Source: a virus
Strand: one strand, 5' to 3'
DNA: 51,151 nucleotides
IMG/VR virus record: IMGVR_UViG_3300043446_003475
Coordinates: 1 to 51,151 of that record
The notes below the pieces were generated by a model. That model saw only the letters and a list, made by a program, of their open reading frames with translations. It had not been told where the DNA came from and made no database searches. The position numbers and the translations under genes are program-made. Positions 3,426 to 42,516 of the stretch are shown here, in pieces. Each line of letters begins with the position of its first letter. Positions within the stretch are counted from its first letter, which is position 1.

Positions 3426-4268
3426 TTATTTTAATTCTCTTCCTGCATTAATTACACTTACTGCAATAGAACTGTGAATAGATTCGTAATGGTTAACAAT
3501 TACAAGATAATCTTTAATGCGACCATCTAAGTCTTTATCTAGCTCAACTGCTACTTTACGTACCATGTCTTCAACGAAGACTGGGTTTTCATACATCAAT
3601 TCGGTTTGATATGCTTCATCTACTCGCTTGAGAGCATTGACAATTGGTGCAGAAGAACTCTTTTCCACTGCTTGAACCAATTCTTCAAACCAATAAACAT
3701 CTGAGTCTACTCCTGTCTTGGACAGCTGTACTGTTACATCAGCATAAGACTGTTGGTTATGAGCTCCGTAATCCGAGATCTCTTTGGAGCAAGGACACAA
3801 AGAAGCATACAACACATTGGCGTGTAGGTAAAACTTCTTCTCACCGTTTACCAAACGACCTTCAAAAGATCCTTGATAATCCATGTGTGAAACAACTTTA
3901 GATACAGGTGCTTCTTTCTTCAAGAAATAGTCAAACTTAATTTTGATATAAGCATTTTGACTCTTGAGGCGTTCCTTGCATTCATCTAGAAGAATGTCCA
4001 TAACCTCATCAATACGATGAGTCTTGTTGGCTAAGACTTCTTCTACCAAAATACGATAGCGACTCATGTTTGTACCCTTAACCTCTGGAGTAAGATCCGT
4101 GTACATACTGATGATAGCTTTAGTAGGATTGATAGATCCATCTTTACGAATGATCTCCATAGGAACAACAATGTTGCGTGATCCTACCTTGGGAATGTAC
4201 TTTTTAGGAAAGCCGTCAAGTGTATTTTGGATATCAGGAATGTCTGCGTTGGTTTTGATTCTAGGCAT
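3426..4268 (-). CDS. folE2: GTP cyclohydrolase I type B (FolE2)
   Basis: This enzyme converts GTP to 7,8-dihydroneopterin triphosphate, the first step towards preQ0 (and folate). Family features seen are Asp-Ile-Gln-Asn at residues 12-15, Met-Ser-Arg near 68-70, the metal/catalytic stretch Leu-Cys-Pro-Cys-Ser-Lys-Glu-Ile-Ser around 157-165, and Gly-Ala-His-Asn-Gln at 168-172. I start at the ATG at 4268 (280 aa) because FolE2 proteins begin close to this Pro-Arg segment; the frame stays open to 4361, but the extra 31 residues are basic and unlike the family. With queD, queE and queC elsewhere in the window, the role is most likely 7-deazaguanine synthesis. Confidence 0.92.
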   Translation of the reverse strand: MPRIKTNADIPDIQNTLDGFPKKYIPKVGSRNIVVPMEIIRKDGSINPTKAIISMYTDLTPEVKGTNMSRYRILVEEVLANKTHRIDEVMDILLDECKERLKSQNAYIKIKFDYFLKKEAPVSKVVSHMDYQGSFEGRLVNGEKKFYLHANVLYASLCPCSKEISDYGAHNQQSYADVTVQLSKTGVDSDVYWFEELVQAVEKSSSAPIVNALKRVDEAYQTELMYENPVFVEDMVRKVAVELDKDLDGRIKDYLVIVNHYESIHSSIAVSVINAGRELK

Positions 4269-4323
4269 ATTATTTGATGGTTGGTTTTTATTATAGAGTA
4301 AGTTTTTTAGATTGCTAATAAAA

Positions 4324-5190
4324 TTACAGATCTTTGAGAATATCATGGATGCGATCGTCAATAGGACTTTCTTCTTCTACTGTCTCTGTTTGTTTAGATT
4401 GAGGAGTTGAATAAGATTCATATTCATCTTCTTCTGGTTCAGGCTTAGAAGCTTGCTTAGCAGCTGGTCTAGATGCTACTTCTTCTGTCTTACCCAAGAA
4501 GTGAACATTCAACAACTTTTGAATTTCATCATAAGGTTTCAATTCAAAAATGGTATCCAATGATTTAACTGAATTGTAAATCTCATCTTGATCTGGATCT
4601 CCTTCTAAAGCTGAAGGTGTCAAGAATCTTGATGCAACATAAGTTGGATATCCGCCTTCATTTTCTTCTACTTTAATACGCAAATTGCATCCGTTTTCTG
4701 ACAAGTCAAAAATCTTTGCACCAAAGTCTTCTGCATCATCGCCCTCCATTGCTGAAGTGATAATCTTGTCCAATTGCTTACCATAACGAAGAATTTTGGT
4801 TTGGCCTTGATTATCTGGATTGGTTGGATCTTTGATTACAAATACATTGACTAACCAATTTTCATTGCGTTTAATGGGTTTAATCTTTTCGATCTCTGCT
4901 TTATCGTTGGTTTTGTAAATCTTGGAACGATACTCATCAATGGGGCACCTTTCCTTAACTGTAGCAGGACAAAGAACTGAAACTAATTCTTGTGTAACTG
5001 TGCTATTCCAAAGGTGATGATAATAGTGGAAGATAGTTCTTTCTGGATGTGCAAGGTTCGGAATGAGACGGACCAAATAGGTCTTTCCAATCTCTAGCTT
5101 GAGGAAATCTTTGAAATTTCCATCTGAAGAATTGCTCTTCTTGGCCAAAGCGTCTTTGATTGAATTAAATAGTGAGGTTGAATATTTCAT
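4324..5190 (-). CDS. 32: Single-stranded DNA-binding protein (T4 gp32-like)
   Basis: Coats single-stranded DNA during replication and recombination. The protein has the T4 gp32 layout: a short basic N-terminal cooperativity segment, a core containing Gly-Lys-Thr-Tyr-Leu-Val-Arg-Leu-Ile-Pro and an aromatic/His cluster (54-61), and a long acidic tail (about 245-288) of the type that contacts partner proteins. The zinc-site region has Cys74 and Cys82 followed by Pro-Ile-Asp, so the last Cys of the T4 pattern appears to be replaced by Asp. Length 288 aa (T4: 301). It lies downstream of the two genes that sit where gp59 and gp33 sit in T4. Confidence 0.88.
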   Translation of the reverse strand: MKYSTSLFNSIKDALAKKSNSSDGNFKDFLKLEIGKTYLVRLIPNLAHPERTIFHYYHHLWNSTVTQELVSVLCPATVKERCPIDEYRSKIYKTNDKAEIEKIKPIKRNENWLVNVFVIKDPTNPDNQGQTKILRYGKQLDKIITSAMEGDDAEDFGAKIFDLSENGCNLRIKVEENEGGYPTYVASRFLTPSALEGDPDQDEIYNSVKSLDTIFELKPYDEIQKLLNVHFLGKTEEVASRPAAKQASKPEPEEDEYESYSTPQSKQTETVEEESPIDDRIHDILKDL

Positions 5191-5204
5191 TGGTTTATGT
5201 TTGT

Positions 5205-5216
5205 TATATTAGGTTA
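5205..5216 (-). promoter_or_regulatory. Candidate promoter element upstream of gp32
   Basis: On the minus strand this reads TAACCTAATATA, 14 bases before the gp32 start and overlapping the stop of the upstream gene. The same 12-mer occurs at 10559-10570 before another minus-strand gene. TAATATA is close to a -10 box. No -35 element was identified. Confidence 0.3.
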
Positions 5217-7062: not shown

Positions 7063-7094
7063 ATTTTATTTAAAGTAAATGGTATAAATAGCAC

Positions 7095-8546: not shown

Positions 8547-9023
8547 TTAGTAGATAGATCTTTCTTCTCTATATACTGCTGAGTTTCTTTCATGTTCCCA
8601 AACCTCTACCTGAGTGACCCAACAACGACCATACGTGATTTCTTGAATATGTTCTTGAGCTCTCTTGAAGCACCACTCTGCGGTTTTTTCAATACCAACT
8701 CCGTCCATAATTCTCAAATCACAACCACCTTCATCATGTAATTGTTTAAAAGAAGGCAACAAGGGATCGTCTTTAGCAATACAAAGAGTATGATCAAATT
8801 GATTCTTTAAAATCTTTTCTAACTCTTTTAAACTGCCAAAGTCTACTACCCAATTACGTTCATCTAATTCCTTAGCTTCAAACCAAAATTTGGCTTTAAG
8901 CTGGTAACCATGAATAAATCGACAATGAGAAAAAGAAGCTGTCCATTGTCGAAATGCACAGCTACCTAACTCTATCATCTTGGTAGATTGAAATGTTGTA
9001 ATATTACTCTTCATCGTCGTCAT
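8547..9023 (-). CDS. queD: 6-carboxytetrahydropterin synthase (QueD)
   Basis: Converts dihydroneopterin triphosphate to 6-carboxy-5,6,7,8-tetrahydropterin, step two of preQ0 synthesis. Seen are the zinc and catalytic cluster His33-Cys34-x3-His38-Gly-Tyr, Val-Val-Asp-Phe-Gly (59-63), Phe-Asp-His (76-78) and a C-terminal Glu/His pair in Val-Trp-Glu-His-Glu. The His-Gly-Tyr in place of His-Gly-His is, as I remember, usual in one QueD subgroup. The frame opens at 9023, overlapping uvsX by 20 bases; ATG codons at 9014 or 8978 are alternative starts, and the last would leave a 25-base gap and fit the family start better. A terminator follows. Confidence 0.88.
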   Translation of the reverse strand: MTTMKSNITTFQSTKMIELGSCAFRQWTASFSHCRFIHGYQLKAKFWFEAKELDERNWVVDFGSLKELEKILKNQFDHTLCIAKDDPLLPSFKQLHDEGGCDLRIMDGVGIEKTAEWCFKRAQEHIQEITYGRCWVTQVEVWEHERNSAVYREERSIY

Positions 9024-10579: not shown

Positions 10580-11311
10580 TTAATCAATATTCTTTTCAGT
10601 TGATTCTAAAGTTTGAGGTTCTTTGGAAGGCTCTTCTTGATCCGGCAACGGAGTAGATTGCCAACCCAAAGCTTCGCTAATTGAAGGAAAAATTTCTATA
10701 AAACTTTGTTTAATATTATCTGCTATTAGACGATGTTCTAGTTGAGTGTCTTCTTTGCATCTAATACTCAGATAATGAATCCATGATCTCACTGAACCAG
10801 TCATGTAGATTGTTGTTTCAGCGCACAGAGGTAAAACTTTACGAGCACTTTCTCGAGCTGCTCCCCTTTCTATAAGGGTTTTATAAAGTTCCATGCTGCT
10901 TGTAATGTGATTTGTAATCAATTTGACTTCTTCTTCAGACAAATCTAACAATTCTACACTAGATTGACGATTTTTATCAGCTTGTTTTCGAATGTTAAAC
11001 GGTTCTAAAGAGACTACTTCACTGTATCGTTGGCTAAATTCTTGAAAAGAAAAGCTTCGATGCCTGATAATTTGGGCAGATATGTCCCTACTGGTGACTA
11101 TTTCGGCTGTCATAGACACTTGTTCAAAGATAGACCAGTGCTCGTGCTCAATACAATACTTCAACAACTTAGAAGAAGTGGCAGTGTTGAGTTGATTGGT
11201 AGGATTAGAGACTCGAGCACAATATACAATAAACTCTTCTGGATCCAAGAAACGAGTGTTGTCTCGGGTTCTAATTAAAGGTTGGGTGAGGGCTATGATT
11301 TGTGTTTTCAT
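10580..11311 (-). CDS. thyX: Flavin-dependent thymidylate synthase (ThyX)
   Basis: Makes dTMP from dUMP using FAD, NADPH and methylene-tetrahydrofolate, supplying thymidine for phage DNA. The ThyX signature is at residues 83-96 (Arg-His-Arg-Ser-Phe-Ser-Phe-Gln-Glu-Phe-Ser-Gln-Arg-Tyr); it has Gln90 where the usual motif has Asn. A C-terminal Arg-Ser-Trp region fits the dUMP-binding half. Length 243 aa is normal. It starts directly beside the stop of the DpdA-like gene. I see no dCTP- or dUTP-modifying genes, so the predicted DNA modification is on guanine. Confidence 0.92.
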   Translation of the reverse strand: MKTQIIALTQPLIRTRDNTRFLDPEEFIVYCARVSNPTNQLNTATSSKLLKYCIEHEHWSIFEQVSMTAEIVTSRDISAQIIRHRSFSFQEFSQRYSEVVSLEPFNIRKQADKNRQSSVELLDLSEEEVKLITNHITSSMELYKTLIERGAARESARKVLPLCAETTIYMTGSVRSWIHYLSIRCKEDTQLEHRLIADNIKQSFIEIFPSISEALGWQSTPLPDQEEPSKEPQTLESTEKNID

Positions 11312-12223
11312 TTATACAGCTAATTTTTTGAACTCTTCTATGTTAAATTTGATCTTTTCCCACTGATCTTCCGACACATTTTCATAAAAAACATCTACCA
11401 TTTTACTGTGTAGTTTGCTCCACATGTATTTGTAGTCACCGTAGGAAGCTCCATAATACCCTGTCATAACTGGGTGGGAAGTGTCTATACTTTCTATAAA
11501 AAAGTATTTAAGTTTGTCGTAATCACCAAATTCAATAGGTATTCCACACCCCAAAAGATGATGTGGTTTCTCAGTATTGATCAAATTATTCTTCATTAAA
11601 TGGTTAATAAGAGCCATTCGCCCCTCAGCTTGAGCTGCTGGTTTAGCATATTTTTTGATAAAATTCAAAGTTACTGTTTCTACTGCCCTGAAAGCTAGTG
11701 AATGTACATCTGCTACTTTACAAAATTCTTCTAAAATCCAAGGTAAATGCAGCAATTTCTTGTAAGTGTCTGAAAATAACTCCCAATAAAGGTCATAACC
11801 AAAGCTAATTGCAATTTTATCAGCAAAGGATGACATAAAAACATAGCATTCTTCCATTTCTTCCAAGGTTTTGCCTTGAACTACTCCAATTTTCTTGCCT
11901 TTTAGCTTGTCTAAATCAAAAGAATACTTAAAATTTGAGAAAGCTTTAGTATTTGCTTCGCAATCTTGCCATACATCTGGTACAATATACTCATCTGGTT
12001 GGATTTCTAACAGCCAATCATAGTATTTTTGTGCATCAAATGCTTTACCCAACTCAAAAAGGCTGCAGTCCATCATTATCTTTCTGCCTTTTTGCTTAGC
12101 ATCTTTAAAAAATTTAAGATATTCTGGACTTTCTTCCAAGAGATGAACTAAACAATAGTCATAATCAGTAATTTCTTGGACTTTGTCCATGATACATAGT
12201 GGTGCTTCGTGTGCTATTAACAT
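11312..12223 (-). CDS. dpdA: DpdA-like DNA 7-deazaguanine transglycosylase (TGT family)
   Basis: Predicted to exchange guanine in phage DNA for preQ0, as DpdA does. The 303-aa protein looks like a TIM barrel with TGT-style features: Met-Met-Asp-Cys-Ser-Leu-Phe-Glu around Asp52, Ile-Val-Pro-Asp at 80-83 (candidate catalytic Asp83), Val-Val-Gln-Gly-Lys-Thr (114-119), a His-His-Leu-Leu-Gly-Cys-Gly motif (221-227), and Ser-Ile-Asp-Thr-Ser-His-Pro around Asp247, which corresponds to the second catalytic Asp of tRNA-guanine transglycosylases. The Cys3-His zinc site of bacterial TGT is not obvious, which fits phage DpdA forms. The full preQ0 pathway in the window supports the role. A tRNA-directed activity cannot be excluded by eye. 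Confidence 0.75.
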   Translation of the reverse strand: MLIAHEAPLCIMDKVQEITDYDYCLVHLLEESPEYLKFFKDAKQKGRKIMMDCSLFELGKAFDAQKYYDWLLEIQPDEYIVPDVWQDCEANTKAFSNFKYSFDLDKLKGKKIGVVQGKTLEEMEECYVFMSSFADKIAISFGYDLYWELFSDTYKKLLHLPWILEEFCKVADVHSLAFRAVETVTLNFIKKYAKPAAQAEGRMALINHLMKNNLINTEKPHHLLGCGIPIEFGDYDKLKYFFIESIDTSHPVMTGYYGASYGDYKYMWSKLHSKMVDVFYENVSEDQWEKIKFNIEEFKKLAV

Positions 12224-16176: not shown

Positions 16177-16929
16177 TTATACCTTTAATGCTTTATCCCA
16201 AACCATTAAATGCAAACGAGGAGACATTTTAAATCCATATAACTTACACAACTCTGCCACTGCTTCTGCATTTGCTACATGTTCTGCTCTTGAACCCGCC
16301 ATCACCATTAACCATATGCGATGTTTGGGTATTCTAATACCTTCATTGTTGATATATTCTACAAACAATTCTTGAACTTCTTCTTCTCCTCTAACTACAA
16401 ATTTAAAACAAGAGTTTTGAGCTACGTGCCATTTTAATACATAAGGAATATAGCGTCTTTCTTTAGGATCTCCATTGCTAGACATCTTGGGTGATACAGT
16501 AAATGTAGCTTGATACTTTTTAACCCATTTTTCATCTGGCATAATAGTTCCGTTGGTTTCAAAATCTATACGTGGAATAAAACCATATCTTTTATCAAAT
16601 TCTTCTACAAATTTAAGAAGAGGTGCTTGTCTTAACATGGGTTCTCCGCCTGTAATCTTCCAGATGTCTCCTCTTTTAAGTTTAAGATGTAATTCATTTT
16701 CTTCATAAAACTTAAACATTTCGTCAAATGTATATTTGTTTTTCTTAGACCATGAAATATAAGAATCACATCCCCATGGAGAGTCTGGAGAAGCCCAACC
16801 TTTACAGGTTAAATTACAACCAAACAAGCGCATAAATACACTTGGATGGCCAATATACTCTCCCTCTCCCTCTACTGTATGAAATCCCGGACCATCATCA
16901 CTTATTAATAGATAATTTTCTTCTGACAT
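16177..16929 (-). CDS. queE: 7-carboxy-7-deazaguanine synthase (QueE), radical SAM
   Basis: Radical SAM enzyme that converts 6-carboxytetrahydropterin to 7-carboxy-7-deazaguanine, step three of preQ0 synthesis. The N-terminus has the QueE layout Gly-Pro-Gly-Phe-His-Thr-Val-Glu-Gly-Glu-Gly followed by Phe-Met-Arg-Leu-Phe-Gly-Cys38. The cluster cysteines are Cys38-x3-Cys42-x11-Cys54, an expanded spacing compared with the common CX3CX2C. Ile-Thr-Gly-Gly-Glu-Pro (about 92-97) is the SAM-binding motif, and Phe-Glu-Thr-Asn-Gly-Thr follows. Length 250 aa. Its neighbours are gp46 (9 bases away) and a glycosyltransferase, not other que genes. Confidence 0.9.
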   Translation of the reverse strand: MSEENYLLISDDGPGFHTVEGEGEYIGHPSVFMRLFGCNLTCKGWASPDSPWGCDSYISWSKKNKYTFDEMFKFYEENELHLKLKRGDIWKITGGEPMLRQAPLLKFVEEFDKRYGFIPRIDFETNGTIMPDEKWVKKYQATFTVSPKMSSNGDPKERRYIPYVLKWHVAQNSCFKFVVRGEEEVQELFVEYINNEGIRIPKHRIWLMVMAGSRAEHVANAEAVAELCKLYGFKMSPRLHLMVWDKALKV

Positions 16930-18774: not shown

Positions 18775-19521
18775 TCAAATGTTAAAATAATTGTCTACAA
18801 TGTTGTAGTTGTAACCGTGTACAAAATCTGTACCATTAAATGGTCTAGAAAACTCTTCATTTACCTGAGAAACCCAATCACGGTCATGACAGTGCCCCCA
18901 GTTTTTAACTTTACGAAGCATGTCTTCCTTAGATCTTACCCAAGAATAGTGATGTACCATAGATTTACCATCTAAACCAAAAATTAATTGCCTCTCTCCG
19001 TGGATAAAATTAGGCAAATGATGCATTTGGTCCCTTTCTTCTCTAACATTTATCTGCCAATTACAATATTTTTTCTTAAGAAGAAGTCCTTGAGCTTCTG
19101 TTTTAGTTGCTTGGTATATAGGTTCTCTAAAATACCAATAAGAAGTCAATTGAAACCCGTAGTCTGTATTTTTTATTTTTTCAAACCACGGGATAAAATT
19201 ATCATCCGTTATTTCATCGCCGTCTACAAAATATAACCATTCATTTTGAGATAAGTCGGTGCCTAATTTTCTGCTGACATTGTGATAATACCCTTTATTA
19301 TTTTTAATACCTTCCCATTCAAAAACTTTAACCCGGGCTAATGGATATTTTTTAATAATTTCTTTACTTTTTACCAATAAATTAAAATCTTCTTCTTCAC
19401 CATTAAAAAGATGAGTACAAATAGGTATAATAATTTCATTACTAAATTTAGACAATTGTTTTAAATTGGCATCTAAAAATCTAAAGTCTATAGTACTATA
19501 TTGTAGAATAGTGGATATCAT
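18775..19521 (-). CDS. GT-A glycosyltransferase-like protein (family 2 type)
   Basis: The last gene of the nine-gene cassette. It has a likely metal-binding Asp100-Gly-Asp102 in Tyr-Phe-Val-Asp-Gly-Asp-Glu-Ile and a C-terminal Val-His-His-Tyr-Ser-Trp region followed by a Lys/Trp-rich helix, both typical of family 2-like transferases. Length 248 aa. It overlaps the upstream gene by 26 bases, which suggests translational coupling. Sugar and acceptor are unknown. Confidence 0.7.
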   Translation of the reverse strand: MISTILQYSTIDFRFLDANLKQLSKFSNEIIIPICTHLFNGEEEDFNLLVKSKEIIKKYPLARVKVFEWEGIKNNKGYYHNVSRKLGTDLSQNEWLYFVDGDEITDDNFIPWFEKIKNTDYGFQLTSYWYFREPIYQATKTEAQGLLLKKKYCNWQINVREERDQMHHLPNFIHGERQLIFGLDGKSMVHHYSWVRSKEDMLRKVKNWGHCHDRDWVSQVNEEFSRPFNGTDFVHGYNYNIVDNYFNI

Positions 19522-20326
19522 AGTGGTATAAATTTTTAATATAATTTTTTACAGAAGATGGAGAATAATTTTGTTTCCAAGAATTATAAGAATTTAGAGA
19601 AGATTGCAATAATAAATCTGAATCATTTAATAAATTAGATATTAAATCTACAATTTCTTTTGGATTATTCCAGTCTACTTTGTAATAATCATTGTTAGAA
19701 TATAACCAATTGTTAGGTAGGTTTTTACTTGCTAGGTTAACACAACCAAAATAAGTTGATTCAAAAAATCTAAAAGTCTCAGGTGTAATTTGTCCATCTA
19801 AAATTAAAGATATTTTTGTGTCATTTAAATTTTCTGAATATTTTAAGCTATTAGTAGAATTAGCTATTAAAACATTATAGGCTCTATCAGTGTTTCGATT
19901 GTTTAATTCCTGAATAATATGATTCAATATGTGAGGTCTAGATGTGTGCAAATTACCCTGAAATCCTATATCAAATTTTCTTTCAGATATTTTTTTAACA
20001 GGCAGAGGCACTATACCGTAACTGTATCCCATGGGTATTGGATACACTTTAAATTTTTCTTGCTCTGGTAATACGTAGTTTTTAAAAATTAAAACATTAC
20101 CATCTGCATAGAGAGGCAGTGTATATCTTTCATCTGAAATAACAAAAATGATAGATTTTTCTTTATTAAAATTTTCTGGTAAAGATTCTAAATTATCAGT
20201 GAATAAAATATTGATACCATTAAAAAAAGAATCATCACTCATTTCTCTAAAAATAGAAGCAAAATAATGCCATTCTAAGATAGACTCTTGTTGAATTAAT
20301 TTTCTTTTATCTAAAATAAGATTCAT
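19496..20326 (-). CDS. Exostosin-like glycosyltransferase (GT47 type)
   Basis: The 276-aa protein shows features of exostosin-like transferases: Tyr-Pro-Ile-Pro-Met-Gly-Tyr (about 118-124), Asp-Ile-Gly-Phe-Gln-Gly-Asn (about 143-149), Pro-Glu-Thr-Phe-Arg-Phe-Phe-Glu-Ser (about 206-214, the acidic donor-binding region) and a C-terminal Trp-Lys-Gln-Asn-Tyr-Ser-Pro. GT-B fold is likely. It overlaps its neighbours by 26 and four bases within the cassette. The substrate is unknown. Confidence 0.65.
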   Translation of the reverse strand: MNLILDKRKLIQQESILEWHYFASIFREMSDDSFFNGINILFTDNLESLPENFNKEKSIIFVISDERYTLPLYADGNVLIFKNYVLPEQEKFKVYPIPMGYSYGIVPLPVKKISERKFDIGFQGNLHTSRPHILNHIIQELNNRNTDRAYNVLIANSTNSLKYSENLNDTKISLILDGQITPETFRFFESTYFGCVNLASKNLPNNWLYSNNDYYKVDWNNPKEIVDLISNLLNDSDLLLQSSLNSYNSWKQNYSPSSVKNYIKNLYHYDIHYSTI

Positions 20327-20991
20327 TGTAATAAATTTAAATAATTTTTTAAATGGTCTAATTTTCCGTGAAATCCAAAAGATTTAATAAAAAGAGAATC
20401 ACTATTTATTAAATGTTCTATTGAAAATTGTTGACCCACTTGAAATGGTGAATATTTTAAATTTTTATTTTTTAATTCTCTTCTTTTGTATACAGACACA
20501 AAACAGTCTTCTTCTATAGAAGTATCATTATAATCTAAAAGAGAACATTCTTTTAAAAATTTTTTACTTCTCAAAGAAAATCCACCATTACCTACTATAT
20601 TTAAATTAGAGGTTGCTGGAACTAAATTGCATTTATTTATTATATCTAATGTTAAAAAATCTGGCCACGGTGCACCGATATAATCATATTCTAAAAAAGA
20701 ATCAGACCAAGAAAGGGGATTAACTACATAACCATCTGGCTGAACTGTTAAACAGTAATCAGTTTGTATAAAATTTGTTAATTCCTTTACACAAAAATAA
20801 CTGTAACTATCAGAAGAATTTAAACCATTTACTATTTTTGTTTCTATACCCGGAAAAGAAACATTTCTATTGGTAATAAGTAACTTTGCTCCAAAATTAA
20901 TTTCTCTACAGCTAAAATTTATAGCCTTTGCAGAATTCTCTGGGTCTCTACCATTAATGCTAACTATGGTGACATTGTTTAAATTTAACAT
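20323..20991 (-). CDS. DUF5672-like putative glycosyltransferase
   Basis: The 222-aa protein carries the hallmarks I associate with DUF5672: Val-Gln-Pro-Asp-Gly-Tyr-Val near residue 84, Tyr-Asp-Tyr-Ile-Gly-Ala-Pro-Trp near 101-108, and Val-Gly-Asn-Gly-Gly-Phe-Ser-Leu-Arg-Ser near 132-141. The Gln-Pro-Asp-Gly motif probably takes the place of the metal-binding DxD. It overlaps the downstream gene by four bases and the upstream gene by seven. Donor and acceptor are unknown. Confidence 0.72.
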   Translation of the reverse strand: MLNLNNVTIVSINGRDPENSAKAINFSCREINFGAKLLITNRNVSFPGIETKIVNGLNSSDSYSYFCVKELTNFIQTDYCLTVQPDGYVVNPLSWSDSFLEYDYIGAPWPDFLTLDIINKCNLVPATSNLNIVGNGGFSLRSKKFLKECSLLDYNDTSIEEDCFVSVYKRRELKNKNLKYSPFQVGQQFSIEHLINSDSLFIKSFGFHGKLDHLKNYLNLLQ

Positions 20992-21776
20992 ATTTTATCA
21001 GCATATACTCCAGAAGGTATCCACTTTAAAAAATGATTTACCTCGCATGGAAATTTAGTTTGTTTTTGCATATCAACCCACTGATTGTATGCATTGGTAT
21101 AGTTATAAAAATTTTCTTTAAAAATTAATTGCTCAGGAGTGGTGTAAGCATAGTGATCAAACATCCAACCTCTTTTAGATGTTGTTTTCTTTTCTACAAT
21201 TCTATTTTCTTTTTTAAAAATTCTAGGTGGTTCATGACTTACAAAGTGAGTCGGTTCGTATATGGTCCACAAACGAACCCATTCTTCCGGATAATCTCCA
21301 TAAGAATTTTCTGTAATTATTTTTAAATTATCACCTACAAAGTAATTACATTTAAATTTCATTGAATCAAAATCATAAAATTTAGATTTACAATTATATA
21401 ATAAATCTTTTAGAACCGTTTCATCCCATATTTCATCAACATCAAATTCCATTAAAATAGAATTTGATACCTGTGGCATAAAGGCATTACACATTTCTAT
21501 TTTACCATTCCAAGGATTATTTTTTCTTAAGATTGTAATGTTGGGATTGTTAATAGAATTTAAAAATTCATAGGTACCATCTGTACTACAAAAATTTGAA
21601 TTATACCATTTTTTATCTGGTAAACTACACCAGCTAGTACAATTAACTGGTAAACTAACTCCTTCTACTATAAACCAATGATCAAAAACTTTAGGAATAA
21701 TTTCCATTTGTCTTTTTATAAATGGCATACCATTTAAAACTATTGTAAAGGCTATGTTTTTTATAGTATTGTCCAT
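20985..21776 (-). CDS. GT-A glycosyltransferase-like protein
   Basis: The 263-aa protein starts with a GT-A-like strand (Phe-Thr-Ile-Val-Leu-Asn-Gly-Met-Pro-Phe-Ile), has Ser-Thr-Asp-Gly-Thr in the nucleotide-binding part and a clear Glu-Phe-Asp112-Val-Asp114-Glu metal-binding motif. A C-terminal Arg-Gly-Trp-Met-Phe-Asp-His-Tyr-Ala-Tyr stretch resembles the acceptor side of such enzymes. It overlaps its neighbours by seven and 16 bases in the cassette. The family is uncertain (GT2 or GT17/92-like). Confidence 0.65.
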   Translation of the reverse strand: MDNTIKNIAFTIVLNGMPFIKRQMEIIPKVFDHWFIVEGVSLPVNCTSWCSLPDKKWYNSNFCSTDGTYEFLNSINNPNITILRKNNPWNGKIEMCNAFMPQVSNSILMEFDVDEIWDETVLKDLLYNCKSKFYDFDSMKFKCNYFVGDNLKIITENSYGDYPEEWVRLWTIYEPTHFVSHEPPRIFKKENRIVEKKTTSKRGWMFDHYAYTTPEQLIFKENFYNYTNAYNQWVDMQKQTKFPCEVNHFLKWIPSGVYADKIC

Positions 21777-24047: not shown

Positions 24048-24834
24048 TTTTAACTTTATTTTTTAAGAAAGTTATTACTTCTTGTTCTGGTACTTGAGGT
24101 ACCTCTAGCATATGAACCCCATGAAGTTCTTTGAAAATGTTGCAAGCTTCATAAAAATTTTTCATCATGTCTTCTTGGTTTCTTACTACACTGTCAGATC
24201 CCATATTAGAAAGATTTTCTATCATGTCCCAGCTGCCGTAGATGTCTGCAAACCACCAAAAAGGTGTAGTAAATCCGTGTTTCCAAGCCCTGTATGTTAA
24301 TTCTGGATGATCACCGTGTCCTTTATTAAATTTAAAATGATGTAATCCAATAGTTTGCAATGCTTGACGGGTATAAAAAGTTAAAGCCCCTAAAACATTA
24401 GGAGTCAATACAATAGAACAATTTTTATATTTGACTATTTTTCTATAAACTGGTTTTAAATCTGGTGTAAGATTTTCTTTTTGAGAAAAACCAAAATTAA
24501 AATGTTCTAATCCAGTTTCTAGACTAGCATTTATATAATGATTAAAAGTTTCTGGGTCTTTAATCATTATATCATCTTCTAATGTAAAAATATAATCACA
24601 TCCTCTATTTAAGAGATGAGACATAGCTAAATTTTTACATTTTCCTACTTGTTTGCCTGTGGGGTTTTGTATTAAAGAACCTCGAATTTCTATTTCCTTA
24701 GATAAAACTTTACCGTCATTAACTATGACTAATTCATCTATATATTCAGGAATAGAACCTAGACATTTTTTTAAAAAGTCTTCTCTATTACATGTAATAA
24801 TTCCTACACCGATTTTATTGCGCGCGTCTGGCAT
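24037..24834 (-). CDS. Family 2 glycosyltransferase (paralog 2 of 3)
   Basis: The 265-aa protein resembles its downstream neighbour: Lys-Ile-Gly-Val-Gly-Ile-Ile-Thr-Cys-Asn-Arg (7-17), Val-Asn-Asp-Gly (38-41), Glu86-Asp87-Asp88, and a conserved Lys-Gly-His-Gly-Asp-His-Pro-Glu region in the C-terminal half. It overlaps the downstream gene by 11 bases and the upstream paralog by 20. Sugar and acceptor are unknown. Confidence 0.78.
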   Translation of the reverse strand: MPDARNKIGVGIITCNREDFLKKCLGSIPEYIDELVIVNDGKVLSKEIEIRGSLIQNPTGKQVGKCKNLAMSHLLNRGCDYIFTLEDDIMIKDPETFNHYINASLETGLEHFNFGFSQKENLTPDLKPVYRKIVKYKNCSIVLTPNVLGALTFYTRQALQTIGLHHFKFNKGHGDHPELTYRAWKHGFTTPFWWFADIYGSWDMIENLSNMGSDSVVRNQEDMMKNFYEACNIFKELHGVHMLEVPQVPEQEVITFLKNKVKNES

Positions 24835-25561
24835 ATTTTTCTTGTAATTTTTCTAAAGCTGCAAACATATCTTCTTTGCTAACTGGTTTAGGATCTGAAT
24901 GTCCAGGAATATATCCGTGTAAATGTTGAAATAGTCCAAAAGATAAAGATATACCCTTTTCTAAATTTCTTGCTGGTATTTTTTGAACTTTAGATTCTGA
25001 TTTATATAAACCAAAATTAACTATAGGATTATAAAAATGAGGCAAATACAATCCATTGTTTCTCATTCGTATAATGTAATCTAAAACATCTAAAATGTCT
25101 GTTTCATAAAACTGTTCGTTAAAATAACCACAATTTTTAATAATTCCAAAATGAATAAACAAAAAATTAGTATTCAATTCTGGTGAAACTTGAAGGGTTA
25201 ATTTATGATCTTCATCTTCTACCTCTAGAACATTGCCACATGGCCCGGTCATGAACCATGTTCCAAAATTACTAGCCAAATTAATAGTATGATTAAAAAT
25301 ATTAACATCTGTTACAGCTAAATTAGAATTGATAAGAAAATAATACTTTAGGTCGGGGTTGGCTCTAAATTGAGATAGAGCATAATTCCTCATTGCAGCA
25401 TAAGAGGTTTCTCGAGTAAATTTAAAATTTTTACCTTTAAGTTTGTTGTTAGTGCTAGAAACTGTGAAAATAGAATCTCTTAACGCTTCGGGTATAGAAT
25501 TATAACAATTGTCATAATCTAATTGGGAGTGGTTATCTAAAATACCTATTGCGATACTCAT
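24815..25561 (-). CDS. Degenerate GT2-like protein (paralog 3 of 3)
   Basis: The 248-aa protein aligns by layout with the two downstream GT2 paralogs (N-terminal Ile-Ala-Ile-Gly-Ile-Leu, Ser-Ile-Pro at 22-24), but where they have Glu-Asp-Asp it has Asn78-Ser79-Asn80. Without the acidic metal ligands it may be catalytically inactive or use another mechanism. It overlaps gp47 by four bases, so the cassette is directly coupled to gp47 translation. Confidence 0.6.
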   Translation of the reverse strand: MSIAIGILDNHSQLDYDNCYNSIPEALRDSIFTVSSTNNKLKGKNFKFTRETSYAAMRNYALSQFRANPDLKYYFLINSNLAVTDVNIFNHTINLASNFGTWFMTGPCGNVLEVEDEDHKLTLQVSPELNTNFLFIHFGIIKNCGYFNEQFYETDILDVLDYIIRMRNNGLYLPHFYNPIVNFGLYKSESKVQKIPARNLEKGISLSFGLFQHLHGYIPGHSDPKPVSKEDMFAALEKLQEKYARRAQ

Positions 25562-32984: not shown

Positions 32985-34256
32985 ATGAACAGACGAGACT
33001 TCATTTACAGTGGGCTTGTAGGTGGTTTAGGTTTAACCATGGGTGAATACTTCAAACTTCAAGCTCAATCCCCCCAAAATTTGTCTGCAAAGGCTCAATC
33101 GGTAATTCATATCTTTTTACCCGGCGGTGCTGCAGCCCAAGAAACCTGGGACCCCCATCCCAATGCTCCTATTGAGTATAGGGGTCCACTTGGAACGGTT
33201 AAAACTGCTATTCCTGGAGTACATTTTTCCGAGTATTTTAAACATACAGCCAAGATTGCAGACAAATTAACCGTTGTTCGCTCCATGACTCATGGTGAAG
33301 CTGCACACGAAAGAGGTACTATATCTATGTTTACAGGATACCGTCCTTCACCAGCTTTGGAGTATCCTTCGTTTGGTTCAGTTGTAGCTCATGAACTTAA
33401 AGATAGAAATAGTTTGCCGGCTTATGTTTGTGTGCCACAAAAACTTTCAGATCCAGCAGACACTGGATATCTCAGCAAAGCTTACGGACCTTTTAGTTTA
33501 GGATCTGATCCAGCATCTGAAAAATTCAAGGTAAGAGATTTAAATTTACCAGAAGGAATAGATACAGCTCGCTTTGAAAAAAGAAGAAGTATTCTAGATA
33601 CAGTAGATAGCCACTTTAAGTACATGGAAGCTAATGATAATGTAGCTGCTATGGATGAATTTTATCAAAAAGCTTATGCTATGATTTCTTCACCCCATGC
33701 TAGAGAAGCTTTTGATTTGCAAAAAGAATCCGATAAAATGAAAAATTCTTACGGCTTGAACCAAGCTGGTCAACGTTTACTCATGGCCCGCAGATTAGTA
33801 GAAGCCGGAGTACGATTTGTGTCCGTAACTTATGGAGGTTGGGATATGCATACTAATATCGCTGGCGGAATTAGTAAACAACTTCCATTTTTTGATCAAG
33901 CATATGCAGCTTTGATTACAGACTTAGAGCAAAGAGGAATGTTAGATTCTACTCTTGTAATGGTTAGCTCTGAGTTTGGCAGGACACCTAAGATTAACAA
34001 AGATGCAGGCCGCGATCACTGGCCCAGAGTGTTCTCTGTAGCATTTGCAGGTGGAGGATTTAAGAAAGGATTGATTTACGGTTCTTCAGATGCTACCGGA
34101 GCAGATGTAGAAGAGAATCCAGTTTCTGTAGAAAACCTTGCAGCAACTATGTATACCCAATTAGGCATAGATCCAGATAAACATTTGATGGCTCCTGGTG
34201 GGCGTCCCTCTGCTATAGTTAAAGACGGAAAGGTTATAACAGATCTTTTGGCTTAA
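32985..34256 (+). CDS. DUF1501 family protein with Tat-type signal (copy 1)
   Basis: DUF1501 proteins belong to the alkaline phosphatase/sulfatase-like fold, are abundant in Planctomycetota and Verrucomicrobiota, and have no settled activity. The 423-aa protein begins Met-Asn-Arg-Arg-Asp-Phe-Ile, a twin-arginine motif, followed by a Gly/Leu-rich hydrophobic stretch to about residue 27. Family motifs include Phe-Leu-Pro-Gly-Gly-Ala (about 43-48), Arg-Ser-Met-Thr-His-Gly (about 100-105) and Ser-Glu-Phe-Gly-Arg-Thr-Pro with Gly-Arg-Asp-His-Trp-Pro further on. It would be exported to the periplasm, unless the signal is inactive and the protein is packed in virions. It is full length and less AT-rich than its neighbours, suggesting acquisition from a bacterium. 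Confidence 0.88.
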   Translation: MNRRDFIYSGLVGGLGLTMGEYFKLQAQSPQNLSAKAQSVIHIFLPGGAAAQETWDPHPNAPIEYRGPLGTVKTAIPGVHFSEYFKHTAKIADKLTVVRSMTHGEAAHERGTISMFTGYRPSPALEYPSFGSVVAHELKDRNSLPAYVCVPQKLSDPADTGYLSKAYGPFSLGSDPASEKFKVRDLNLPEGIDTARFEKRRSILDTVDSHFKYMEANDNVAAMDEFYQKAYAMISSPHAREAFDLQKESDKMKNSYGLNQAGQRLLMARRLVEAGVRFVSVTYGGWDMHTNIAGGISKQLPFFDQAYAALITDLEQRGMLDSTLVMVSSEFGRTPKINKDAGRDHWPRVFSVAFAGGGFKKGLIYGSSDATGADVEENPVSVENLAATMYTQLGIDPDKHLMAPGGRPSAIVKDGKVITDLLA

Positions 34257-35069: not shown

Positions 35070-36434
35070 ATGAAAGATTGTGGATACCACCCCTCTGAAC
35101 CAACAACTCGAAGAGAATTTTTAACTAGCTTTGGAAGCGGTATAGGAGGATTAGCATTGGCCTCTCTGTATGGAATAAATCCCCATACAGCAGAAGCTAT
35201 TTCTCCTACCCTTCCCAAACAGTCTCATTTTCCAGTTAAAGCTAAGTCTATCATTCATCTATTTGCAGGTGGAGCACCTTCTAGTGTTGATACGTTTGAC
35301 TATAAACCAGAACTTCAGAAAAATAATGGCAAGAAAATGGAACACGGGGAACTACTAGCATCTCCATTTCAATTTAATAAAAGTGGTAAATCAGGAATAG
35401 AAATCTCAGAAGTGTGGTCTGAATTAAGCAAACATGCAGATCATATGGCAATTATTAATTCTATGTTTGCAGAAATTCCTGATCACGGCATTGCTGCTAA
35501 AGTAATGCACACGGGAAGTGCTCAATTGCCTAAACCTAGCTTAGGTAGTTGGATTGTGTATGGTCTGGGAACCGTAAATCAAAACATGCCTGGTTTTATT
35601 AGCTTAAATGGCTCCTCGGTATCGAGACAAAGTGCATTTTTACCAGGCATGTTCCAAGGCAGCAATGTAGATTATCGCCCAGGAGCCACGGCTGATCAAT
35701 TAATTAACAATATTAGAAGCCAATTTTCCGGCTTAGACCGTCAACGTCGTCAATTAGACTTTTCTAAGACCATAAACGAAATTCACATGCAAAATGTTCA
35801 GCGTGATGCTCAATTTGAGGCACGCATAGAAGCGTTTGAAACTGCATTTAAAATGCAAACAGAAGCAACAGATGTTTTTGATTTAACCAAAGAACCGGAA
35901 AACATTAAAGAAATGTACGGCGTCAATCCAAACGGAGCACGTTTGTTAATTGCTAGACGGTTAGTAGAGCGAGGAGTGCGCTTTGTTCAGGTAAACATTG
36001 GTGGTTATGATCACCACGAAAATATTAAAGAAGCAATGCCCAGGACTACTAAGACCCATGATCAAGCCATTGCGGCTCTTATTACAGATCTCAAGCAAAG
36101 AGGCTTGTTAGACTCTACGTTAATTGTTTGGGGTGGAGAATTTGGTCGTACGGTTACAGCAGGAGGTTCAGCAGGTGCTCCGGGAAGAGACCACAATGGC
36201 AAAGCATTTAGTGTCTGGATGGCTGGTGGTGGAGTTAAAGGTGGTCAAAGATATGGTGAAACAGATGAAACTGGTGGCAAGGCTGAAAAAGATAAGGTAC
36301 ATGTTCATGATTTACATGCTACCATTCTCCAATTAATGGGATTTGATCACACTAAGCTCACATATTCATACAACGGCAGACCCTTTCGCCTCACAGATGT
36401 TTATGGAAACGTAATTAAAGAAATTACAGGTTAA
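35070..36434 (+). CDS. DUF1501 family protein with Tat-type signal (copy 2)
   Basis: The 454-aa protein has an N-terminal Thr-Thr-Arg-Arg-Glu-Phe-Leu twin-arginine motif (residues 12-18) and a hydrophobic segment ending near an Ala-Glu-Ala site (about residue 43). Family motifs are His-Leu-Phe-Ala-Gly-Gly-Ala-Pro-Ser, Asp-Thr-Phe-Asp-Tyr-Lys-Pro (about 74-80), Trp-Gly-Gly-Glu-Phe-Gly-Arg-Thr and Gly-Arg-Asp-His-Asn-Gly (about 355-375). It resembles Planctomycetota proteins more than any T4-like phage product I know. It is clearly different from copy 1, so the two look like separate acquisitions or an old duplication. Confidence 0.9.
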   Translation: MKDCGYHPSEPTTRREFLTSFGSGIGGLALASLYGINPHTAEAISPTLPKQSHFPVKAKSIIHLFAGGAPSSVDTFDYKPELQKNNGKKMEHGELLASPFQFNKSGKSGIEISEVWSELSKHADHMAIINSMFAEIPDHGIAAKVMHTGSAQLPKPSLGSWIVYGLGTVNQNMPGFISLNGSSVSRQSAFLPGMFQGSNVDYRPGATADQLINNIRSQFSGLDRQRRQLDFSKTINEIHMQNVQRDAQFEARIEAFETAFKMQTEATDVFDLTKEPENIKEMYGVNPNGARLLIARRLVERGVRFVQVNIGGYDHHENIKEAMPRTTKTHDQAIAALITDLKQRGLLDSTLIVWGGEFGRTVTAGGSAGAPGRDHNGKAFSVWMAGGGVKGGQRYGETDETGGKAEKDKVHVHDLHATILQLMGFDHTKLTYSYNGRPFRLTDVYGNVIKEITG

Positions 36435-37676: not shown

Positions 37677-37689
37677 GTAAAATCCTTAA

Positions 37690-37956: not shown

Positions 37957-37960
37957 TATT

Positions 37961-38599
37961 ATGAAAATAGCAGTTGTAGGTACACAGTGTATTGGTAAGA
38001 GCACATATGTAAAAGACTTTCTCCAGAAATGGAGCATGTATTCTACTCCAGAAAAGACTTATAGAGACTTAATTAAAGAAAAAAATATTCCTATTAATCG
38101 ATTAGGATCAGAAGAATCACAACAAATTATTTTAGACTTTTTAGTAGATCAAGCCACACAATATTCAAAATCAGATAATATTATTTTTGATAGATGTGTA
38201 TTAGACAATTTAGTGTATTCTTCTTGGCTTCATCTTCACGATAAAGTGTCTGAAAAATTTTTAGATAACTGTCGTTTAATTGTTAAAGAATCTTTAAAAC
38301 TTTTTGATATCATTTTCTTTTTACCAATCACTAAAGCCTCTCCGGTTAATCTAGTAGAAGATGGTGTAAGAGATACGGATCCTATTTACAGAGAAGAAAT
38401 AGACAACATTTTTAAAGCCTTTATGCAATCTTATGTTCACGGAGATGGTAGAATCTTTCCTAAAGTAGATTCACCTGCTTTTATAGAGATTTTTGGAACA
38501 CCAGAACAACGTATAGCTTTAACAAATTTATATATTACAGATTTAGGACACGCTTATGGAGAGAAAGAAAGTTTACTTTCTGACATATGGACTCCATAA
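37961..38599 (+). CDS. P-loop nucleotide/nucleoside kinase-like ATPase (AAA_28 type)
   Basis: The 212-aa protein has a Walker A loop Gly-Thr-Gln-Cys-Ile-Gly-Lys-Ser-Thr (7-15), Ile-Phe-Asp-Arg-Cys-Val-Leu-Asp-Asn (about 73-81) in the substrate/Walker B position, and Arg-Asp-Thr-Asp-Pro-Ile-Tyr-Arg (about 135-142) resembling the lid Arg region of NadR- and deoxynucleoside-kinase-like proteins. It probably phosphorylates a nucleoside or related metabolite; the substrate is not clear. It lies upstream of the primase region with no overlap. Confidence 0.7.
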   Translation: MKIAVVGTQCIGKSTYVKDFLQKWSMYSTPEKTYRDLIKEKNIPINRLGSEESQQIILDFLVDQATQYSKSDNIIFDRCVLDNLVYSSWLHLHDKVSEKFLDNCRLIVKESLKLFDIIFFLPITKASPVNLVEDGVRDTDPIYREEIDNIFKAFMQSYVHGDGRIFPKVDSPAFIEIFGTPEQRIALTNLYITDLGHAYGEKESLLSDIWTP

Positions 38600-38602
38600 A
38601 TA
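38595..38602 (+). promoter_or_regulatory. Late-promoter-like element (CATAAATA)
   Basis: Seven of eight bases match TATAAATA; it ends six bases before the ATG at 38609 and overlaps the stop of the kinase gene. The predicted transcript would begin at about the start codon. Confidence 0.45.
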
Positions 38603-38608
38603 AAATAT

Positions 38609-39556: not shown

Positions 39557-39576
39557 AATTACTATATACTGCTTTT

Positions 39577-40542: not shown

Positions 40543-40543
40543 A

Positions 40544-41098: not shown

Positions 41099-41110
41099 TA
41101 GAATATACTA

Positions 41111-41118
41111 TATTTACC
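41111..41118 (-). promoter_or_regulatory. Late-promoter-like element (GGTAAATA) before the minus-strand gene
   Basis: On the minus strand, GGTAAATA followed by TA (GTAAATATA) lies 12 bases before the ATG at 41098, the same distance as the matching element before 36942. It sits inside the 22-base gap to queC. Confidence 0.35.
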
Positions 41119-41120
41119 GT

Positions 41121-41867
41121 ATGAATGTGGAAAATTCTCCGAAGTCTTGTCTAGTGTTATACAGTGGAGGTATGGATAGTACCGTAGTTTTACATCATGC
41201 CTTGAAAAAATATGAGTTAGTTCAGGCAATTTCTTTTGATTACAACCAAAGACACGGTAGAGAATTAAGATTAGCACAGCAGTATGCTTTGAATTTTAAC
41301 AAACAAGCAGGTTCAGAAAGAATTAAACATACATTTATAGATTTAACGTCAATCGGAGCAGCTCTAGTAGACAGTTCTTTGACCAATTTAGACCTAGATG
41401 TTCCAAAAATGAGAGATGTTATAGGAGATCCTCAAACATCAGCATATGTACCCAATCGTAATATGATGTTTTTATCAATAGCAGCATCTTTAGCAGAGAG
41501 TGCAAAAGCAGATACGATCTTTTATGGTGCAGCAAAAGCAGATGATACTTCGGGTTATTGGGATTGTACTCAAGAATTTAGAAGCTTATTAAACCAAATC
41601 CTAAGCCTCAATCGTAGAAATTTAATTCAAATAGAAGCACCTCTTATAGACTTAGATAAAAAGCAAATCATAGAATATGGGTTAGAATTAGGTGTAGATT
41701 TTTCAAAAACACACACTTGTTACAATAGTTATGGTACAGATTTAGCATGTGGAGAATGCCCTTCTTGTTCAGCCCGCATAGCTGGATGGATTCAAGCAGG
41801 TAAAATAGATCCAATCAAATACTCCAGAGAAATAGATTGGCAAAAATATAATTGTGAATTAATATAA
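41121..41867 (+). CDS. queC: 7-cyano-7-deazaguanine (preQ0) synthase (QueC)
   Basis: ATP-dependent conversion of 7-carboxy-7-deazaguanine to preQ0. The start is taken at the ATG at 41121 (248 aa); an upstream ATG at 41025 in the same frame would add 32 residues and read through the divergent gene, so it is unlikely. The PP-loop Ser15-Gly-Gly-Met-Asp-Ser20 is present, with a middle Tyr-Val-Pro-Asn-Arg-Asn-Met-Met-Phe motif and the C-terminal zinc-site layout Cys-Tyr-x6-Ala-Cys-Gly-Glu-Cys-Pro-Ser-Cys. It is the last step of the preQ0 route, and the amidotransferase gene follows after four bases. Confidence 0.95.
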   Translation: MNVENSPKSCLVLYSGGMDSTVVLHHALKKYELVQAISFDYNQRHGRELRLAQQYALNFNKQAGSERIKHTFIDLTSIGAALVDSSLTNLDLDVPKMRDVIGDPQTSAYVPNRNMMFLSIAASLAESAKADTIFYGAAKADDTSGYWDCTQEFRSLLNQILSLNRRNLIQIEAPLIDLDKKQIIEYGLELGVDFSKTHTCYNSYGTDLACGECPSCSARIAGWIQAGKIDPIKYSREIDWQKYNCELI

Positions 41868-41871
41868 TTGT

Positions 41872-42516
41872 ATGTGTGGAATTGCAGGCAGTTCAGATTT
41901 AGAGAAGGCATATACTCTTTACAAATTAAATTTAAAAAGAGGGTCTCACTCATCTGGGTTTATGGCTTTATCCTTTCAAGAAGATAAAGAATGTATTAGT
42001 TTAGTAGAAAAAGCTAAAGGAATTTTTAATTTAAATCTTTTAAAACAAAGAATTAAAGATTTAGATAATGTTTGTAATTTTTCTTACTTTGCATTTCATT
42101 CAAGAGCACCTACCAATTCTACAGAAACTATCTGGAAAGAATCTCACACACATCCATTTAACAATGATTCGTATTATGTAGCTCATAATGGTATTATTTC
42201 TAACTTTAAATCTTTTCCAGAACACTCTTCATTTGAAGTAGATTCATCTATTATTCCTTATCTTTTAACAAAAAACCATAATATATCTCAAACATATTCC
42301 AAGCTGCAAGGATTGCTTACTAGTTGGGTTTTTACTGGTAAGAAATTTTATGTAGTTAAAGCTGGAAGCTCTTTGTGGGTAGAAAAAGACAGCTTTAGCT
42401 CTTCAGAATTTGAAAATGCAGAAAGAATAAAAGAAGACGGAGTAATTTTAGAATTAAAAGATAATTTCTTGACAGTCAAAGACTCTTTTAAATACACAAA
42501 TCCTTATTTTATATGA
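41872..42516 (+). CDS. Class II glutamine amidotransferase, candidate deoxyarchaeosine-forming enzyme
   Basis: The 214-aa protein starts Met-Cys-Gly-Ile-Ala-Gly, so Cys2 would be the N-terminal nucleophile after Met removal. Further family features are Arg-Gly-Ser-His-Ser-Ser-Gly (about 24-30), His-Ser-Arg-Ala-Pro-Thr-Asn (about 73-79), Ser-His-Thr-His-Pro-Phe (about 88-93) and Ala-His-Asn-Gly-Ile-Ile-Ser-Asn (about 101-108). It is a single amidotransferase domain with no synthase partner attached, directly behind queC. In phage 9g and some archaea the same two domains are fused (Gat-QueC) and yield archaeosine. I infer that it delivers ammonia to the preQ0 nitrile. A general amidotransferase role for sugar synthesis is the main alternative. 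Confidence 0.75.
   Translation: MCGIAGSSDLEKAYTLYKLNLKRGSHSSGFMALSFQEDKECISLVEKAKGIFNLNLLKQRIKDLDNVCNFSYFAFHSRAPTNSTETIWKESHTHPFNNDSYYVAHNGIISNFKSFPEHSSFEVDSSIIPYLLTKNHNISQTYSKLQGLLTSWVFTGKKFYVVKAGSSLWVEKDSFSSSEFENAERIKEDGVILELKDNFLTVKDSFKYTNPYFI

Follow-up and report, generated by a model that had tools for sequence, protein, structure and literature searches.

To place the putative 7-deazaguanine DNA modification pathway of an uncultivated virus among known phage systems, we compared it with the closest described ones. In phage CAjan, DpdA is needed for insertion of the base and the modification protects from restriction, and both CAjan and Rosebush, which have DpdA and genes for preQ0 (7-cyano-7-deazaguanine) without an amidotransferase, carry 2′-deoxy-preQ0 (dPreQ0) (PMC6884629). 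The Gat-QueC protein of phage 9g together with DpdA made deoxyarchaeosine (dG+) in E. coli plasmid DNA, and the DNA of Vibrio phage nt-1, which is stated to have DpdA2, was reported with ∼0.02% of G as dG+, ∼0.11% as dPreQ0, and ∼0.035% as 2′-deoxy-7-amido-7-deazaguanine (dADG) (PMC6884629). Moreover, 100% of dG was reported to be replaced by dADG in phages CP220 and CPt10 (PMC8306585), and the genus Immutovirus was described as having gene sets putatively for modified nucleotides (PMC11500664). The stretch analyzed here, IMG/VR virus record IMGVR_UViG_3300043446_003475 (51,151 bases, hereafter called the window), is a fragment of a larger virus genome. Its gene content makes it highly probable that the virus synthesizes preQ0 and exchanges guanine in its DNA through a DpdA-like protein, most likely against restriction. 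This is a known kind of anti-restriction DNA modification, found here in a new setting with an unusual gene combination, and complete as far as preQ0.

Genes from GTP to preQ0

The initial annotation, made from the sequence alone, had assembled the following six proteins into a complete pathway.

3426 to 4268, minus strand: FolE2, GTP cyclohydrolase IB, converting GTP to dihydroneopterin triphosphate (PF02649, E = 3.4e-65; NF010200, 212.8 bits, cut-off 215)
8547 to 9023, minus strand: QueD, 6-carboxytetrahydropterin synthase (PF01242, 1.2e-19; phrog_2389, 1.3e-37)
11312 to 12223, minus strand: DpdA-like guanine transglycosylase of the CP220/immuto group, predicted to exchange guanine in DNA for a 7-deazaguanine base (from homologues, predicted fold, and linkage)
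16177 to 16929, minus strand: QueE, radical S-adenosylmethionine 7-carboxy-7-deazaguanine synthase (phrog_2076, 3e-49; TIGR03365, 3e-12, below cut-off; in Pfam, only Fer4_12 at its cut-off)
41121 to 41867, plus strand: QueC, preQ0 synthase (PF06508, 3.8e-59; TIGR00364, 176 bits, cut-off 150)
41872 to 42516, plus strand: Gat, standalone glutamine amidotransferase of class II with Cys2, presumed to supply QueC with ammonia and/or to be an amidine-forming subunit (phrog_18128, 1.2e-11)

All six reading frames are open at these coordinates; FolE2, QueD, QueE, QueC, and Gat were recognized by profiles of their families, and the DpdA-like protein was reached via phrog_19058. These matches are well outside what chance would produce. 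The claim that every step from GTP to preQ0 is covered was confirmed by the matches of FolE2, QueD, QueE, and QueC, and the FolE/FolE2, QueD, QueE, and QueC set that the phage 7-deazaguanine pathway requires is present, via FolE2 rather than FolE. For FolE2, an alternative earlier start (TTG) lies at 4361, and the profile match starts at residue 10 when counted from the ATG (4268). The cysteines of QueE line up with those of its relatives in the alignment, and QueC has the SGGMDS motif and the zinc cysteines. Two results weigh against these assignments, namely, that the NCBIfam equivalog cut-offs were not reached by QueD, QueE, and (narrowly) FolE2, and that HGY replaces the usual HGH at the expected zinc-ligand motif of QueD. 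HGY for HGH was present in 29 of the 32 aligned QueD sequences, that is, phage QueD relatives. Overall, a complete GTP-to-preQ0 gene set, accompanied by a protein with the fold of tRNA-guanine transglycosylases (TGTs) that belongs to a phage DpdA clade, is well supported.

Two side observations concern these families in other viruses. The QueD of CP220 has neither HGY nor HGH, and a QueC variant of the immuto type, with all four zinc cysteines missing and SGGMDS kept, was seen in 7 of 26 readable rows (L004, L058, L060, L068, L073, L081, and L096).

A DpdA-like protein of the CP220/immuto group

The DpdA-like protein had no Pfam or NCBIfam match and, taken alone, matched only unannotated PHROGs (phrog_19058, 1.1e-46). 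Of 50,697 phage records, 19 matched it at an E value of 0.01 or better, namely, four of Flavobacterium phage immuto (40.5%), 14 of Campylobacter phages (36%), and one weak match in a Weizmannia phage. The immuto homologue is annotated as "DNA guanine transglycosylase," and the CP220 homologue (36% identity over 92%) is annotated as hypothetical. An alignment-based scan of IMG/VR with the protein yielded at least 570 confirmed stretches, from which the best 80 loci were kept. D52, D83, R202, H222, and D247 were invariant in all 48 aligned DpdA-like proteins.

The AlphaFold (AF2) model of the protein had a mean predicted local distance difference test (pLDDT) score of 92.7. In a Foldseek search of the PDB, the first three ranks were taken by two TGTs and 7UI4 (rank 3), the crystal structure of the DNA preQ0 insertase DpdA. 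The VIA structural comparison gave a Z score of 17.6 and a root mean square deviation (rmsd) of 3.0 over 225 residues to the TGT 2PWV, and all 50 matches listed were TGTs (Z = 17.2 to 17.6). Among predicted viral proteins, the model matched a protein of Cellulophaga phage phiST and, lower down, one of Vibrio phage nt-1. TGTs carry the zinc motif CxCxxC near the C terminus, and this motif was found in none of the 58 non-redundant DpdA-like members (two of them incomplete).

Several results stand on the other side. The TGT and DpdA rows had modest Foldseek TM-scores by query length (0.39 to 0.50), and at rank 4 came a galactanase with a similar E value. In the VIA comparison, 7UI4 was not among the 50 matches listed, and 957 of 1,000 chains reached Z ≥8, so barrels in general score well. 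The sequence profile of the family ranked 7UI4 (E = 0.86) under chance-looking matches, and the PADLOC DpdA models gave no match to the window protein and an E value of 0.011 for the CP220 protein. In addition, the assignment of D52 and D247 as the catalytic TGT pair is tentative and follows from their motif context and from what is known of TGTs.

With both sides considered, the model and the missing motif suggest an enzyme of the TGT superfamily other than a canonical tRNA TGT. Membership in a tRNA-only TGT family or in another TIM barrel family was not borne out, as the best structural matches are TGTs and CxCxxC is absent, and the assignment to a phage DpdA clade was upheld by the homologues in immuto and CP220, the predicted TGT fold, and the linkage to the pathway. 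At the level of subfamily, the protein falls with the CP220/immuto group but not convincingly with the 9g type: the profile comparison with 9g DpdA gave a weak match of just 34 columns (E = 0.054), and the protein is therefore not to be filed in the 9g subfamily. From the families, predicted fold, and linkage observed, we infer catalysis and a DNA rather than a tRNA target.

Gene neighborhoods and the window's clade

The local gene content was compared in 85 DpdA-bearing loci (those of both scans, the window, and three named phages), which were reduced to 58 non-redundant loci at 85% identity; the flanks reached up to 10 kb in loci from the scans and 20 kb in two of the named phages, and the window was covered entirely. 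At least one FolE, QueC, QueD, QueE, or QueF homologue was present in the flanks of 53 of the 58 loci. The five loci without such a gene were L036, L042, L075, L095, and CP220, the last being counted here because its annotated QueD, ∼9 kb away, fell outside the clusters. Over all 58 loci, homologues were found for QueE (37), QueF (35), a kinase (34), a formyltransferase-like protein (34), QueD (32), QueC (24), FolE1 (22), Gat (11), FolE2 (10), and ThyX (10).

In the DpdA tree (56 rows), the window's clade comprised 11 rows and was supported at 98/89. Directly downstream of dpdA in the window lies a context gene that the pathway does not need.

10580 to 11311, minus strand: ThyX, thymidylate synthase (TIGR02170, 6.4e-49)

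Ten of the 58 loci, every one of them in the window's clade, have ThyX no farther than 2.5 kb from dpdA. In the relatives, dpdA is flanked by the polymerase gene and thyX; queE is found upstream of it, queD and folE2 are found downstream, and conservation also extends to the QueC-Gat block. Among the long records of the clade, the window (G000) and G001 are the same virus, which leaves eight distinct records (G001 and G003 to G009). FolE2 was found in six of these; the two without it, G004 and G005, end 2.5 and 5.4 kb beyond dpdA, and in relatives FolE2 lies ∼7 kb beyond dpdA. QueC and Gat co-occurred in six of the eight, with G003 (44 kb) and G008 (91 kb) having neither. The earlier suggestion of an integral trait was thus supported by the arrangement of dpdA, polymerase, thyX, queD, folE2, and queE and by the QueC-Gat block kept in relatives; on this comparison of sequences, the 7-deazaguanine pathway is an inherited, syntenic feature of the window's virus group.

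QueF was found locally in none of the 11 clade loci, compared with 35 of the 47 loci outside the clade, and neither QueF nor ArcS was found in any of the eight distinct long clade records. Virus records may be incomplete, and therefore a missing QueF or ArcS is no proof of absence, which tempers what follows from these counts. The lack of QueF bears on the idea that the genes raise host queuosine in tRNA with no DNA modification, an option raised for phages with preQ0 genes but without DpdA (PMC6884629). Given that no QueF was found in the clade to make preQ1, and that a conserved, linked TGT-fold protein without CxCxxC is encoded, we regard this explanation as very improbable.

A separate observation in the same loci concerns an immuto gene annotated as a phosphoribosyltransferase (L004, 17834 to 18229), which had homologues in 18 of the 58 DpdA loci and in none of the window's clade.

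Gat and the identity of the final base

According to the scheme we favor, FolE2, QueD, QueE, and QueC of the virus would convert GTP to preQ0, the DpdA-like transglycosylase would exchange guanine in viral DNA for a 7-deazaguanine base, and Gat would give ammonia to QueC and may also convert the inserted nitrile to an amidine (dG+); the 7-deazaguanine in the DNA would most likely counter restriction. The final product and the protection from restriction are what we infer from the gene set.

Gat matched GATase_6 with 19 bits, under the cut-off of 27, and a profile of 12 Gat relatives matched GlmS and PurF chains in the PDB (3.9e-7 to 2.7e-3). C2, HNGI (105 to 108), D124, and a C-terminal NPY motif were invariant in all 12, and Gat has the features of an N-terminal cysteine class II glutaminase, with Cys2 and the GlmS/PurF profile matches. 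In the window, Gat and QueC are separate genes, with QueC first, and not a Gat-QueC fusion. Gat was within two genes of QueC in all 11 loci having both, compared with 1.8 expected under random placement. The same family also occurs in Vibrio phages KVP40 and 2.275.O, where it follows QueC, and in nt-1. The possibility that Gat belongs to downstream sugar genes was considered and rejected: of seven blocks with QueC, Gat, a glycosyltransferase-like gene, and DUF366, only the window has an NAD-epimerase after Gat, and the QueC-Gat pair recurs.

The initial annotation had predicted dG+ specifically, which would make QueC and Gat a split archaeosine synthase acting on preQ0 already in DNA, like the fused Gat-QueC of 9g. 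This reading is favored by the proximity of Gat to QueC, by the eight distinct clade records in which no QueF that would divert preQ0 was found, and by the dG+ that 9g Gat-QueC and DpdA made in plasmid DNA (PMC6884629). Against it, 14 distinct whole records had Gat, and while the six in the window's clade were without QueF, all eight outside it had a QueF match (one below cut-off). Of 11 Gat loci, 10 also had QueF when the count was confined to the vicinity of dpdA, which leaves out most of the window's clade, as Gat there lies far from dpdA. Gat is therefore, by itself, no sign of dG+. Moreover, nt-1 has Gat and ArcS, yet its DNA had trace dG+ only (PMC6884629), and the match of the window Gat to the 9g Gat domain is weak. 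Thus, the dG+ product was not established, as Gat need not make an amidine, and we hold it to be possible but on balance doubtful.

Since Gat accompanies QueF in all eight records outside the clade, it may simply give ammonia to QueC. QueF would reduce preQ0, and hence the Gat of QueF viruses is better read as a QueC ammonia donor. If Gat of the window is likewise merely the glutaminase partner of QueC, the DNA would contain DpdA-inserted dPreQ0, or dADG if QueC stops halfway. This is consistent with the occurrence of Gat in viruses both with and without QueF, with the two ATP-dependent steps, via 7-amido-7-deazaguanine (ADG), in which QueC uses ammonia (PMC13329287), with the dADG reported for the DpdA relatives CP220 and CPt10 (PMC8306585), and with the dPreQ0 of CAjan and Rosebush (PMC6884629). 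However, CP220 has no Gat by profile and is hence an imperfect analogue, and a clade without QueF leaves room for an amidine-forming role. A donor-only Gat seems to us quite plausible, if short of probable. As neither QueF nor ArcS turned up in the sequence available, our estimate of the final base is divided: dG+ comes first, tentatively, followed by dPreQ0 as a somewhat weaker candidate, then a further elaborated base, which we think unlikely, and dADG, which we think more unlikely still.

The base could also arise by another route, in which this DpdA subfamily acts on the nucleotide pool and a 7-deazaguanine deoxynucleotide, phosphorylated by a linked kinase, is incorporated by the phage polymerase, leading to complete G replacement as in CP220. 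The window encodes one candidate kinase.

37961 to 38599, plus strand: P-loop (deoxy)nucleotide kinase-like protein ("thymidylate kinase" PHROG, phrog_2107, 1e-21)

The 100% replacement reported for CP220 and CPt10 (PMC8306585) fits this route. Of the 34 non-redundant loci with both genes, 29 have the kinase homologue within 2.5 kb of dpdA, compared with 11.3 expected if genes were placed at random; among the 29 are CP220, with a gap of 42 bases, and immuto, with one of 659. In the window, however, the kinase lies 25.7 kb from dpdA, and its role in the pathway is purely conjectural. The predicted fold of the DpdA-like protein is that of TGTs acting on nucleic acids, and the CP220 study reportedly found no dADG nucleotides in infected cells. 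We therefore consider synthesis through the pool improbable and retain exchange in the DNA as the preferred route.

Glycosyltransferase and DUF366 genes beside QueC-Gat

Two further genes follow the QueC-Gat pair.

43523 to 44203, plus strand: glycosyltransferase-like (GT) protein, conserved in the QueC-Gat block (PF13712, 1.2e-8, over cut-off)
44218 to 44790, plus strand: DUF366 protein with a biotin/lipoate-ligase fold, candidate further 7-deazaguanine enzyme (PF04017, 9.9e-21)

The order QueC-Gat-GT-DUF366 was found in the window, G004, G006, and G010, and QueC-GT-Gat-DUF366 was found in G005, G007, and G009; of the seven blocks, that of the window alone has the NAD-epimerase separating Gat from GT. 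G025 and G027 have Gat and GT close to QueC, with DUF366 at another place. The GT gene sits where other viruses have sugar-gene cassettes, and its tie to base modification is therefore uncertain. As a side observation, a similar epimerase was seen by eye just upstream of DUF366 in one virus without a local QueC (L231).

A search of 36 records, in which the window and its parent contig count as two, found DUF366 in 12. Methanosarcina acetivorans, included as a control, also gave a DUF366 match. The AF2 model of the viral protein (pLDDT, 90.2) matched Pyrococcus 2DDZ, a "protein of unknown function," with Z = 21.4 and an rmsd of 2.4 over 173 residues, followed by biotin protein ligases (BirA) with Z up to 12.9 and an rmsd of 3.1 over 156. 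K123 was invariant in 28 of 28 sequences and, when aligned with 2DDZ, falls in a stretch that we take to resemble the catalytic-lysine region of BirA.

Of 195 genomes in a sample of the Asgard archaeal phylum, 33 had DUF366, and 20 of these 33 loci (L173 to L192) were examined with wider flanks, the families being checked by Pfam in one locus. DUF366 was the immediate same-strand neighbor of a QueD homologue in all 20. FolE2 came directly before DUF366 in 13 of the 20, QueC was in the same stretch in 13, and the QueE cluster spanned 16. The order QueE-FolE2-DUF366-QueD-QueC was seen in 12 loci, with QueE directly matched in eight and a protein of the same size in the other four. DUF366 was not found in six other genomes (one archaeal and five bacterial).

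In viruses, the scan (best 80 of 199 confirmed stretches) gave 28 non-redundant DUF366 loci. QueC, Gat, and GT were nearby in 11 of them and missing within ∼6 kb in 17, two of which end within 600 bases upstream; in three of the 17 that were viewed, DUF366 follows genes that look, by eye, like sugar metabolism. These counts weakened the tie between DUF366 and the queuosine pathway in viruses. A strict co-occurrence of DUF366 with FolE2 was also rejected, as records with one but without the other exist. The sole DUF366 match among phage records was MW495066 (L142), filed as Microcystis phage MaAM05; its stretch is annotated with SecDF, glycyl-tRNA ligase, FliM, and FabI and therefore looks like bacterial chromosome rather than phage.

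Thus, DUF366 is probably a 7-deazaguanine protein in archaea and possibly one in these viruses. A more far-reaching proposal would make it an overlooked 7-deazaguanine enzyme of both, a BirA/LplA-fold acyl-adenylating ligase acting on a carboxylate such as 7-carboxy-7-deazaguanine, which in the viral clade with QueC, Gat, and GT would build a further elaborated, undescribed DNA base. We rate it as a rather unlikely proposal. Among the literature matches listed, no paper used DpdA3/DpdA4, DUF366, COG2029, or PF04017 in this context, although subscription papers could exist.

Virus type and possible host

The whole window, reversed, matched positions 57,152 to 108,302 of a 125,677-base contig with one mismatch (same virus). 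It contains genes for DNA polymerase, a DnaB-like helicase, single-stranded DNA-binding protein (SSB), late sigma factor, and tail sheath stabilizer, and its flanks in the larger contig contain portal, major head protein, and terminase genes. Matches to phrog_213, 138, 262, 224, 234, and 227 cover the portal, head protein, polymerase, SSB, late sigma factor, and sheath stabilizer, and we take these to be T4-type families. The window is part of a T4-type bacterial myovirus. No tRNA genes were found in the window or in seven pieces of the contig. Two further genes bear on the host.

32985 to 34256: DUF1501 protein (Pfam DUF1501, without PHROG match)
35070 to 36434: DUF1501 protein (Pfam DUF1501, without PHROG match)

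Of 35 genome loci matching the first, the best six encode planctomycete proteins with 57 to 62% identity to it and the next are at 45 to 46%, which, at the level of sequence, suggests a planctomycete as host or donor and no more. The segment with both genes is absent at the corresponding place in the close relatives G004 and G006 and is apparently host-derived cargo.

Two observations made by eye concern the window at large. About nine consecutive genes on the same strand (18775 to 25561) have a sugar-related look; of three run against Pfam, one had a weak glycosyltransferase match, one a weak unrelated match, and one no match. Most of the pathway genes are preceded by AT-rich leaders with no obvious Shine-Dalgarno sequence.

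Comparison with known systems

The results place a DpdA family that includes CP220, with its reported complete dG replacement, in a large set of uncultivated viruses (at least 570 related IMG/VR stretches). A natural comparison for what sets the final base is offered by clades that have one DpdA family in common but differ in the presence of QueF, and DUF366, through its constant place beside QueD in the Asgard loci examined, is a candidate for a part still missing from preQ0 or archaeosine metabolism.

The proposed close parallel with phage 9g was not supported. The two share preQ0 chemistry, a DpdA, and a Gat, but 9g has a fused Gat-QueC and no FolE2 match, its DpdA is not convincingly matched by the window DpdA profile, and the match between the window Gat and the Gat domain of 9g is weak (179 columns, E = 0.0085). 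KVP40 and 2.275.O resemble the window in having queC followed by the same standalone Gat family, which nt-1 shares; unlike the window, KVP40 and 2.275.O also have QueF, nt-1 has ArcS, and none of the three has a FolE2 or DUF366 match. CP220 (Firehammervirus) differs in having no Gat, FolE2, or DUF366 match, while it agrees with the window in its DpdA-like orthologue, annotated QueD, QueC match, kinase gene (adjoining dpdA in CP220), and lack of a QueF match. Phage immuto (Immutovirus) is unlike the window in its GTP cyclohydrolase, annotated as FolE and without a FolE2 match, its annotated QueF and formyltransferase, its QueC without zinc cysteines, and its lack of a Gat or DUF366 match; like the window, it has a DpdA-like protein (40% identical) together with annotated QueC, QueD, QueE, GTP cyclohydrolase, and thymidylate kinase.

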